Source: Clostridia bacterium (GTDB lineage Bacteria > Bacillota_A > Clostridia > Oscillospirales > CAG-382). Taken from it: 8,494 nucleotides of DNA. The stretch covers positions 1-8,494 of the forward strand of contig JAFWWX010000308.1 in assembly GCA_017517985.1 (NCBI GenBank). Reading direction: 5' to 3'. This document shows, piece by piece, positions 3,690-8,494 of this stretch. The notes under the pieces are model-generated. The model made no database searches. It was not told the DNA's origin and saw nothing but the letters and a program-made list of their open reading frames with translations. Made by a program: the position numbers and the translations under genes. Every line of letters begins with the position of its first letter. Positions within the stretch are counted from its first letter, which is position 1.

Positions 3690-4556
3690 CTACTTTCTTC
3701 TGCTGTGTTTCTTACGTTGTTTTTCGAGTGGCGTATCCGAAATCGGTTCTATTTCCGTATCTGTTTCTTTTGCTTCTTCTGTTGTTTTCAGTTGTGGAAT
3801 GAATTTTGAGGCAAAAAATCTCCTATTCCTTCCTATTAAATAAAAATATCCGATAATAGAAAAAACAACAGCACCGATGAGATTTACTATAAGGTCCTTC
3901 ATTGTGTCGGATATACCTATGTCAAGGTATCCATTTTCAATAACATAAGGTTCCTTTCCATCCGAGAAATATAATACTGTTTTTTTTATATTTTCAAGTT
4001 TAATTGGATCATTTATCCCGTCAGGGTGTAGCTTTACGGAGGAAATATCTGTCATAATCCGGTCTTTCTGCATATCAGAAAGTGTAAAGGTGTCCATGCC
4101 AAATTCAAAGAACTCCCAGAGAATACCGACTGTCATTGAAAAACTGAAGGCAACAAAAGCAACAAACAGGGGAGAAAGACTAAAGTGGAATCTTGGCGAA
4201 TTATTAAGAATATCAATCATCGCAAAGCCGATAGCCGCCATAAGAAAGCCGTTGAGTGTATGAAGCATTGTATCCCACCAGGGAATTCTTGTGTAGAAAT
4301 TACCAATTTCACCAAGTATCTCTGCAGCAAAGATAAAAAGAAGTATTATTGCCTGAAGTTCCGGCGTGAGTTTTACCTTGAAGGTTCTGTCCACAAAAGC
4401 GGGGATATAAAACAGTAGAAGGGTAAGAGTGCAGAGAAAAACTGAATAATAGTCACCCCGTAAAAATCGTGCAATAAGTATCCCCATAACAACAAAGGAA
4501 AGTACAGAATGAAGAACACCTTTTTTTCTTCTGCCAGTCTTTGTTTTTTCTTTCAT
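3690..4556 (-). CDS. Polytopic membrane protein of unknown function (possibly DUF2238/YjdF-like)
   Basis: I do not know a function. The 288-residue product starts with a basic cytoplasmic end (KEKTKTGRRKKG) and has about six membrane segments, near residues 14-30, 36-55, 66-87, 98-116, 126-150 and 222-243. A soluble loop of roughly 70 residues lies between the fifth and sixth, and a charged Lys/Arg/Glu tail ends the protein. Segments 3-5 carry charged or polar residues that should be buried: Glu79 and Glu83, then PWWDTMLHTLNGF with Asp95, His99 and Asn102, and GILWEFFEFGMD with Glu148 and Glu151. This WD...H...WEFFE pattern recalls the small integral membrane family DUF2238/YjdF, an assignment from memory only. 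AGGAGG (4563-4568) is six bases before the ATG. No clear terminator separates it from the phosphatase gene downstream on the same strand. Confidence 0.75.
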   Translation of the reverse strand: MKEKTKTGRRKKGVLHSVLSFVVMGILIARFLRGDYYSVFLCTLTLLLFYIPAFVDRTFKVKLTPELQAIILLFIFAAEILGEIGNFYTRIPWWDTMLHTLNGFLMAAIGFAMIDILNNSPRFHFSLSPLFVAFVAFSFSMTVGILWEFFEFGMDTFTLSDMQKDRIMTDISSVKLHPDGINDPIKLENIKKTVLYFSDGKEPYVIENGYLDIGISDTMKDLIVNLIGAVVFSIIGYFYLIGRNRRFFASKFIPQLKTTEEAKETDTEIEPISDTPLEKQRKKHSRRK

Positions 4557-5708: not shown

Positions 5709-5754
5709 TGTATATATATGTGCTATAATATGGTATAATAATTTTGCTTATAAT
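5709..5754 (+). promoter_or_regulatory. Tandem -10 boxes of the mgtE promoter region
   Basis: TGCTATAAT (5721-5729) and TGGTATAAT (5731-5739) are both extended -10 elements ten bases apart, and a third TATAAT lies at 5749-5754. A TTGTAT at 5709-5714 is 19 bases before the second box. Initiation near 5735-5747 would leave a leader of about 30-40 bases. Confidence 0.6.
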
Positions 5755-5774: not shown

Positions 5775-5864
5775 ATGCACGAAAAGCTGACGGAACTTAT
5801 TGCATAAAAGAAATATACGGAAATCCGTCATATACTTAACGACATAAACAGTGCGGACATAGCA
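5775..5864 (+). pseudogene. mgtE: 5' segment of mgtE cut off by an in-frame TAA
   Basis: From the ATG at 5775 the frame reads MHEKLTELIA, then TAA at 5805-5807, then KKYTEIRHILNDINSADIA, and runs without a shift into the long open frame. MgtE proteins typically begin in the style of KLLELIEEKKYxELRxLLxxLNPADIAELLEE, so both sides of the stop are genuine MgtE N-terminal sequence. A single base change at the TAA, for instance from GAA, would restore a 452-residue protein of normal family length. Possible readings are a nonsense mutation, a sequencing or assembly error, or rare readthrough. Confidence 0.8.
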
Positions 5865-7133
5865 TTGCTTCTTGAAGAATTTGAAAGAACCAATATGCTT
5901 CGTCTGTTCAGACTTTTGCCGAAGGATATAGCCTCTGAGGTTTTCACATACTTATATTCGGATTCTCAAGCCCAGCTTATAAGTGCGTTTAACGATAATG
6001 AACTTCGTGCGGTGCTTTCAGAACTTTATGTGGACGATACTGTTGACATAATCGAGGAGATGCCTGCGAGTGTTGTTACAAGGATTCTTGAAAACTCAGC
6101 CCCAGATACAAGACGCGAAATAAACGAGCTTCTTAATTACCCTTCGGAAAGCACCGGAAGTGTTATGACTACCGAATATGTTGCATTCCGTGAAAATATG
6201 GACTGTGACAGTGCTTTGAACTATCTCAGAAAGTGCGGTATAGATAAAGAAACTATTTATACCTGTTATGTTACGGACAAGAGAAAGCTTATTGGTGTTG
6301 TCACGGTAAAGGATATTCTTCTTGCAAAGGAAAATGCCTTAATAGGTGATATAATGGAAAGAAGTGTAATTTCCGTATCCGCCTATGAGGACAAGGAGAC
6401 CGCCGCAAGAATGTTTGATAAATATGACTTTCTTGCACTTCCTGTTGTAGATAAGGATAACAGACTTGTTGGTATTGTTACGGTAGACGACGCTATTGAT
6501 GTTATGCGATCTGAAAGCAACGAAGACTTTGAAGTGATGGCGGCTATCACTCCTACAGAAAAATCCTACTTAAAGACCGGAGTTTTTGAACTTGTATGGA
6601 AACGTATTCCGTGGCTTCTGCTCCTTATGCTTTCTTCTGTGTTCACCTCCGGAATAATAAGCTCCTTTGAAGAGGCACTTGGAGTAATGCCTGTGTTGAC
6701 CGCATATATACCTATGCTTATGGGTACGGGAGGTAATGCAGGAGGTCAGTCCTCGGTTACAATAATAAGAGGACTTGCTCTTGAAGAAATAAGCGGAAAG
6801 GATATATTCAGGATTTTGTGGAAAGAATCACGGGTTGCCGTTGTTTGCTCCTGTATTCTGTCAATTGTAAACTTTGCAAAAATCGTGCTGTTTGATAAAA
6901 TGCTTCTTGGGAATGACAGTATCACATATCCCGTTGCAATTTCGGTATGTTTGACACTTGCTGTAACGGTAATAGCTGCAAAGCTTATAGGTTGTTGCCT
7001 TCCGGTTGTGGCAAAGAAAATAAAACTTGACCCTGCAGTTACCGCAAGTCCGTTTATAACAACTGCAGTCGATGCAATTGCCCTTGTGGCATACTTTAAA
7101 ATATCCGTAATGTTAATAGAGGGACTTATGTAA
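5865..7133 (+). CDS. mgtE: Magnesium transporter MgtE (N-terminus interrupted)
   Basis: MgtE is a dimeric inner-membrane Mg2+ channel whose cytosolic N and CBS domains sense intracellular Mg2+ and close the pore. Counting from the first codon of this 422-residue frame (TTG), residues 1-100 are the MgtE N superhelical domain (LRLFRLLPKDIASEVFTYL). Residues about 100-225 are two CBS domains (LIGVVTVKDIL, then LVGIVTVDDAI). Residues about 245-420 are the five-helix pore domain. The pore signature GTGGNAGGQSSVTIIRGLAL starts near residue 287, and LDPAVTASPFITTAVDA has Asp389, the conserved acidic residue of the last helices. All domains except the first helices are intact. Without the upstream 30 codons, initiation would need the TTG at 5865 or the ATG at 5895, neither with a good ribosome binding site, so the gene may be silent or weakly expressed. 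Confidence 0.9.
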   Translation: MLLEEFERTNMLRLFRLLPKDIASEVFTYLYSDSQAQLISAFNDNELRAVLSELYVDDTVDIIEEMPASVVTRILENSAPDTRREINELLNYPSESTGSVMTTEYVAFRENMDCDSALNYLRKCGIDKETIYTCYVTDKRKLIGVVTVKDILLAKENALIGDIMERSVISVSAYEDKETAARMFDKYDFLALPVVDKDNRLVGIVTVDDAIDVMRSESNEDFEVMAAITPTEKSYLKTGVFELVWKRIPWLLLLMLSSVFTSGIISSFEEALGVMPVLTAYIPMLMGTGGNAGGQSSVTIIRGLALEEISGKDIFRILWKESRVAVVCSCILSIVNFAKIVLFDKMLLGNDSITYPVAISVCLTLAVTVIAAKLIGCCLPVVAKKIKLDPAVTASPFITTAVDAIALVAYFKISVMLIEGLM

Positions 7134-7143
7134 ACAAATAACC

Positions 7144-7174
7144 AAAGGTGTGTCGCAAAATGCGACACACCTTT
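7144..7174. terminator. Shared terminator hairpin between mgtE and dnaX
   Basis: AAAGGTGTGTCGCA (7144-7157) pairs perfectly over 14 bases with TGCGACACACCTTT (7161-7174) around an AAA loop. It lies 10 bases after the mgtE stop and 23 after the dnaX stop. The stem is strong and AAA/TTT ends serve both directions, though a long separate T run is absent on either side. Confidence 0.82.
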
Positions 7175-7197
7175 AAATATTCATATCAAAAGAAGAA

Positions 7198-8494
7198 TTA
7201 AAGATCCCATTCTTCCTCTTTGTCGTTACCGATAATCTCAAATTTTACAGTAACATCTCCCACATACTTGCGAACACAGTTTTCGATTACGCTGGACTTT
7301 TTGCTGTTGCCCTTCAGCATAACAGAGACAAATGAGGGGATAGAGATTACAACGGTATCTGTCCCCAAAGAGTACGCTTTTGCATTTGAAAGAAGCGAGC
7401 CGAGAAGTTTGTCCTTTTCCTTGATTTCCTCCATAATGTCAGGGAATGCAGTTAAGGGATTTCTGCTTGCAGACACATCAGCTGTATTGGCCTTTGAAGT
7501 TTTTTTATTTTCCGTTTTGCTAAAATTCTGTTCTTCTTCATTCGACTTTGAAACAGCAGGAATGTCAGCCGGCAACGGATTGTTGTCCGGCAGATCCGGA
7601 ATAAATACATCCGGGGGCGCAATGTCAAAGGGAGGAATATCTGGAATAGCATCCGGAATATCAAAATCAGTTATATAAGATTCTACGCTCGTTTGCTTCG
7701 TAATATCCGTATTATTGTTCTTGAAGTCCCTTTGTGCTTCTGCGTTATTATCTGCAGAGGCTACTGATGGCTTCACTACGGAAACTTCTGCAACAGTAAT
7801 ATTTCCGTTTGAAATTTTATCCTCAAGCTCGGATATCCTTGTGTTAAGTGATTCCGGAAGTGTCCATAGCTTTATATCACAAAGTCTGATAACACAAGTT
7901 TCAAGTACAGCCCTTCCTGAAAAACCGGTTTTTGTAAGTCTTGTCTGGGCATCATCAAGAATTTCAGTACTGTATATAAGACGTTCCTTTGTAAATTTCT
8001 TTGCACATTCGGAAAGTGTACTGAGAACATCGGCAGAGCCTTCAACAAACTTTTCAGGATTTCTTGTATACTTTATCATAAGCATATCTCTCACAGCATC
8101 CGCACATTCAGAGAGAAGAATACCCATATCCTTGCTTCCGTTGTATGCCTCGGAGATGACAGAAAGTGCAGTAGCACAATCATTGTCAGCTATTGCGGAA
8201 AGAAGCTTCATAACAGGGCCTCTGCCAACAACACCCAATGCTCTTGCGCACATTTCCTCAGTTACCGTATCTTCTTTTCCGACAAAAAGCTCAAGCATAG
8301 AAAGGGCATCACGCATAGCACCGCCTGCCAGCCGTGCAATAAGCATAACAGCGCCGTCAGTCATAGGAATATTTTCTGCTTTACATATATCTTTAAGCCT
8401 CTTTGCAATATTGTCCGGAGTGATTCTGTGGAAATCAAATCTTTTGCATCTTGAAAGAATTGTAGCAGGTATTTTGTTAAGCTCTGTGGTGGCA
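7198..8494 (-). CDS. dnaX: DNA polymerase III subunit gamma/tau, C-terminal part (5' end outside window)
   Basis: DnaX is the ATPase core of the clamp loader that places the beta sliding clamp on primed DNA, and its tau form ties polymerase to helicase. The frame is open to the right edge, so the ATG at 8364 is internal. The first visible residues read ATTELNKIPATILSRC; the SRC arginine finger is encoded at 8446-8454. GGAMRDALSMLE follows, with the sensor-2 Arg as residue 61 from the window edge. The oligomerisation domain III continues to about 7850. A variable linker follows, with repeated Pro-Asp-Ile/Phe units (about 7570-7670) and a Lys/Asn/Ser-rich stretch. A compact C-terminal domain of some 80 residues ends the protein, with SLGTDTVVISIPSFVSVML. 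The Walker A and zinc-binding parts are beyond the edge. It converges on mgtE and shares its terminator. Confidence 0.95.
   Translation of the reverse strand, partial: ATTELNKIPATILSRCKRFDFHRITPDNIAKRLKDICKAENIPMTDGAVMLIARLAGGAMRDALSMLELFVGKEDTVTEEMCARALGVVGRGPVMKLLSAIADNDCATALSVISEAYNGSKDMGILLSECADAVRDMLMIKYTRNPEKFVEGSADVLSTLSECAKKFTKERLIYSTEILDDAQTRLTKTGFSGRAVLETCVIRLCDIKLWTLPESLNTRISELEDKISNGNITVAEVSVVKPSVASADNNAEAQRDFKNNNTDITKQTSVESYITDFDIPDAIPDIPPFDIAPPDVFIPDLPDNNPLPADIPAVSKSNEEEQNFSKTENKKTSKANTADVSASRNPLTAFPDIMEEIKEKDKLLGSLLSNAKAYSLGTDTVVISIPSFVSVMLKGNSKKSSVIENCVRKYVGDVTVKFEIIGNDKEEEWDL

Follow-up and report, generated by a model that had tools for sequence, protein, structure and literature searches.

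The mgtE locus and its window

The nine reading frames examined in the window, i.e., the whole stretch of 8,494 nucleotides that was analyzed, include an mgtE gene with an in-frame TAA at codon 11. The parts of this gene and its surroundings, described with reference to an otherwise identical public protein termed P0001 (452 residues), are the following:

5721..5739 (+), two extended -10 elements (TGN-TATAAT) 5′ of mgtE, read directly from the sequence, that may form a promoter
5775..5804 (+), the ten codons that open mgtE, which match P0001 exactly (residues 1-10) and are preceded by a moderate ribosome-binding site
5805..5807 (+), in-frame TAA, codon 11 of mgtE, read directly from the sequence
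5808..7133 (+), the 441 codons of mgtE that follow the stop, with the terminal TAA, covering the rest of the N domain, the CBS pair and the membrane domain (Pfam MgtE_N, CBS and MgtE; sequence alignment of P0001 to Thermus thermophilus MgtE, 2yvx)
5865..5867 (+), TTG at codon 31, the first of the common start codons to occur in frame beyond the stop (-3.2 kcal/mol, close to the 25% mark of the background)
5895..5897 (+), ATG at codon 41, the first in-frame ATG after the stop (-0.9 kcal/mol, below the median strength of the background)
7198..8494 (-), dnaX (gamma/tau of DNA polymerase III; Pfam), convergent with mgtE and cut by the window end

The ATG (5775-5777), the ten codons that follow it, the TAA (5805-5807), 441 sense codons and the terminal TAA (7131-7133) share a single frame. 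An earlier, sequence-only reading of this DNA had placed the start codon, a ribosome-binding site and MgtE-like residues on both sides of the stop in one frame, with all 441 subsequent codons open; this description holds in full, the ribosome-binding site being of moderate strength. No further stop occurs within the 441 codons, which under a simple composition model would stay open by chance with a probability of ~8e-14. The part of the gene located after the TAA matches the Pfam families MgtE_N (codons 25-124), CBS and MgtE, in this order and all above the curated cut-offs. It thus has the three domains of T. thermophilus MgtE (PDB 2YVX; PF03448, PF00571 and PF01769), to which residues 5-450 of P0001 match with an E-value of 5.6e-79. 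The gene is therefore predicted to encode a CBS-regulated Mg2+ transporter of an Oscillospiraceae-like bacterium, with Mg2+ transport and gating expected by homology. It differs from MgtE transporters by the stop at codon 11, found only in the window, whereas P0001 is an ordinary member of the family.

Several neighboring features were recorded as well. A terminator-like hairpin of 16 pairs, overlapped by a sub-threshold rli61 match, lies at 7142-7176 (-), directly 3′ of dnaX and between the convergent dnaX and mgtE. The ribosomal protein L10 leader (RF00557; 1447-1594, +; 56.3 bits for a gathering score of 44) is found 5′ of rplJ and is an ordinary autoregulatory leader. The ClpP-like protease encoded at 598-1422 (+; 274 residues), presumably of the TepA type after which it is named here, has a best public match, among those listed, that is 95% identical over 81%; unlike for mgtE and the membrane protein of the window, an identical protein is absent among the matches listed. 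This membrane protein (3690-4556, -; 288 residues) has no Pfam match in the window search and is identical over its 288 residues to the public protein P0121, which has the precomputed domain PF09997.

The genetic code of the window

Could the TAA at codon 11 simply be decoded as an amino acid, through an altered code or a suppressor tRNA? The open frame and the homology found on either side of the stop would fit such decoding. However, TAA terminates seven of the nine reading frames, including rplJ, rplL and mgtE itself (TAG terminates the other two), so the code is unaltered, as had been concluded earlier from the termini of rplJ, rplL and other genes. Moreover, the eight other frames, two of which (M18 peptidase and dnaX) lack their starts because the window ends within them, contain no internal stop, and there is no tRNA gene within the window. 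Decoding of TAA as sense is hence close to inconceivable, and an altered genetic code was rejected on the ground that TAA is the terminator of conserved genes.

Signals upstream of mgtE and candidate restart sites

The two extended -10 elements at 5721..5739 are not part of a two-hexamer promoter detectable by consensus scan, and a search for RNA families at E ≤ 1 gave neither an Mg2+ riboswitch nor any other known leader before mgtE, the two RNA-family matches of the window being located elsewhere. The window background has a median of -1.2 kcal/mol and a 5% tail at -6.4; the best anti-Shine-Dalgarno pairing before the ATG at 5775 reaches -6.0 kcal/mol and narrowly misses this tail, whereas tepA and rplL, also located in the window, have values of -8.4 and -9.3 kcal/mol, respectively.

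If the stop is real, translation from the ATG at 5775 would yield a ten-residue peptide, and a restart at the TTG at 5865 or the ATG at 5895 would strip the start of the N domain. Early nonsense mutants, for example of Escherichia coli lacI, yield restart proteins, and the window resembles them in having an early stop followed by an in-frame TTG and an in-frame ATG. It differs from them in that neither candidate restart site has a ribosome-binding site above background, and in being known from sequence alone. The reinitiation from a weak start invoked by the sequence-only reading is mechanically possible, but a start with a ribosome-binding site soon after the stop, as expected of a restart gene, was not found, both the TTG and the ATG falling within background. 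A literature search returned no paper on lacI-type restart, and the four papers retrieved on premature stops with downstream starts concerned eukaryotes only, as far as their titles and the beginnings of their abstracts indicate.

Codon 11 in P0001 and in relatives

A protein search that gave 8000 matches, of which the best 120 were listed, identified P0001 as 100% identical to the part of mgtE located after the stop. Indeed, the ten residues before the stop (10/10) and the 441 after it (441/441) are the same, i.e., 451 of 451 in all, and P0001 has a sense residue at position 11, with the same spacing and the same length. As the two frames are equal in length, the difference between them is a substitution rather than an insertion or deletion. 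P0001 represents a cluster of three members from four contigs of up to 48142 bases, some or all of which would carry exactly the intact sequence; the P0121 cluster consists of a single contig of 14015 bases. P0001 may come from a different assembly of this population, or even of the very same contig, which would favor an error in the record.

Among the 120 listed homologues (best 120 of 8000), 119 have a residue in the column of codon 11 and one has a gap (P0048), a count that is weak by itself because predicted proteins cannot contain stops, so that genome-level counts decide. The column is variable, with 12 different residues among the listed homologues, and therefore does not require any particular residue. 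At the DNA level, 50 fetched loci correspond to 45 distinct places (five were fetched twice), of which 43 have a sense codon at position 11 and two are not aligned there: one is truncated at a contig end (L039), and the alignment of the other starts at residue 14, although its frame stays open upstream of this point and includes a methionine there (L041). Of the 63 genomes in the family to which the nearest genome belongs, 46 have an mgtE match at E ≤ 1e-100; 44 of these matches cover codon 11, and no stop was found within the 46. The same stop in at least two genomes, the mark of a conserved stop, was thus not observed among the family matches or the distinct loci, and a conserved stop was rejected given that no relative examined has TAA at codon 11. 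For the same reason, readthrough as a conserved mechanism is unsupported.

The genome-contig scan recovered four relatives, the nearest with 66% identity. The family of that nearest genome (63 genomes) and sampled genomes from its order (394) and its class (391), sets that overlap, gave no match above this value, which places the species of the window outside these genomes. DNA copies of the region were absent from plasmids, and no viral contig had the exact pattern over the start of mgtE. Judged from the sense residue of the otherwise identical P0001 and from the sense codons of the loci of relatives, the TAA at codon 11 is not a property of the lineage. The sequence-only reading had proposed that a sense codon in close relatives would reveal an error or a strain-specific change; P0001 and 43 of the 45 loci point to one or the other of these.

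Mg2+ transporters of the nearest genomes

MgtE was found in 47 of the 63 family genomes, as a single match in 46 of them and, in G022, as two partial matches located at contig ends and covering different parts of the domain; in effect, mgtE is a single-copy gene in this family, that of the nearest genome. CorA occurs in 10 of the 63 genomes, one of which also has MgtE, and an MgtA-type ATPase exceeds the curated cut-off in 2 of 63, the weaker matches to P-type ATPases found in 62 of 63 being probably, in view of the cut-off, other P-type ATPases. MgtE and CorA almost never co-occur in these 63 genomes (G001 and G005-G066; completeness not given, including for the nearest two), with MgtE only in 46, CorA only in 9, both in 1 (G024) and neither in 7.

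G001 and G036, the two genomes nearest to the window, each have a single MgtE and neither CorA nor MgtA above cut-off, and both show the convergent arrangement of mgtE and dnaX seen in the window (loci L001 and L040). At another locus (L002), a divergent rubrerythrin gene lies upstream of mgtE at a distance of ~1.4 kb. Since mgtE is effectively single-copy, the nearest two genomes have no CorA or MgtA above cut-off and the dnaX neighbor is kept, the mgtE of the window is best viewed as the resident orthologue and is unlikely to be a spare copy, and its loss should be costly. Judged on these nearest genomes, MgtE is likely the only recognized Mg2+ importer of the MgtE, CorA and MgtA types in this lineage. 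A decaying spare copy was rejected on the same observations, relatives having one MgtE and the dnaX neighbor being retained. Nor does the gene look like an established pseudogene: extra lesions or substitutions are absent from its 441 codons without stop and its 451 residues out of 451 shared with P0001.

Origin of the stop

The confidence attached to each reading below is a matter of judgement and was not computed. The most probable explanation, which we hold with modest confidence, is that the TAA at codon 11 arose from an error at one base, made in reading or in assembly, or from some other change to the record in this copy. According to this explanation, the bacterium would have an ordinary resident mgtE, the TAA would exist only in the record, and the cell itself would make a normal MgtE of 452 residues. 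The window has the stop, and the public databases contain a protein that is identical except for a sense residue at this position; we infer an error rather than a real allele. An error is favored by the single lesion, by the 451 of 451 other residues shared with P0001, by the lack of a stop in the 46 family matches and the sense codons of 43 of the 45 loci, by the eight other frames of the window being free of internal stops, and by the price that the cell would likely pay if its resident Mg2+ transporter were lost. An error predicts that reads, or a second assembly of this DNA, would lack the stop; P0001, which may come from such an assembly, lacks it. The record is not generally poor, which counts against an error: the rest of the window looks clean, and the membrane protein equals P0121 throughout. 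The sequence itself bears no mark of error. A literature search on errors in metagenome assemblies returned no paper.

The next most probable reading, less probable than an error and yet a serious contender, is a real, very recent and strain-private nonsense mutation, which would leave the ten-residue peptide and either a null allele or an MgtE shortened to 422 or 412 residues through the TTG at 5865 or the ATG at 5895. The frame, the start and the other codons are intact, as in a newborn allele, and every other residue is that of P0001. In-frame stops are also widespread in bacterial genes, with sequencing error as one of four sources, according to Belinky et al. (2021; PMC7918605). On the other hand, the gene likely encodes the only recognized Mg2+ importer of these types, as judged from the nearest genomes only, and neither restart site rises above background. 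In these frames, about 3.9% of single substitutions create a stop, a share that is equal for an error and for an allele and therefore does not separate them. Belinky et al. accepted only stops common to at least two genomes in order to exclude sequencing errors; the mgtE of the window resembles the isolated in-frame stops described there by its single stop, its otherwise intact frame and its homology on both sides, but differs from them in that its stop was seen once.

A functional stop, by which leaky readthrough of the TAA or regular restart within the N domain would set a low dosage of MgtE or weaken its Mg2+ gating, is very unlikely. The only points in its favor are that the gene is otherwise intact and that the MgtE proteins studied so far have a regulatory N domain (PMC3435302); however, none of the relatives examined has the stop, P0001 lacks it, there is no RNA family match near the TAA, and the restart codons have no ribosome-binding site above background. 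The narrower proposal of a strain-specific regulatory allele, with MgtE dosage lowered or Mg2+ gating loosened by readthrough or restart while sister strains would keep the full frame, is similarly improbable. When the N domain of Bacillus subtilis MgtE was deleted in its entirety, Mg2+-dependent downregulation of the protein in vertebrate B-cells was largely abolished and the growth of MgtE-dependent cells was stunted, results that do not fully fit, according to the authors, the earlier view that the deletion favors the open state (PMC3435302). The effect of a shorter cut in the N domain is not predictable from this whole-domain deletion. Recent gene loss, an error in the sequence, and readthrough or reinitiation, the latter with a suggested weakening of Mg2+ sensing, had been put forward together by the sequence-only reading; the comparison with relatives speaks for an error or a strain-specific change, and conserved readthrough finds no relative with the stop.

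Significance

The mgtE of the window is an ordinary gene with a lone stop in one copy, and the finding is itself an ordinary one. Its significance is small: a lone in-frame stop in one contig calls for a check of near-identical public proteins before one proposes any mechanism. Should the stop prove both real and functional, it would provide a natural test of the role of the first part of the N domain of MgtE.
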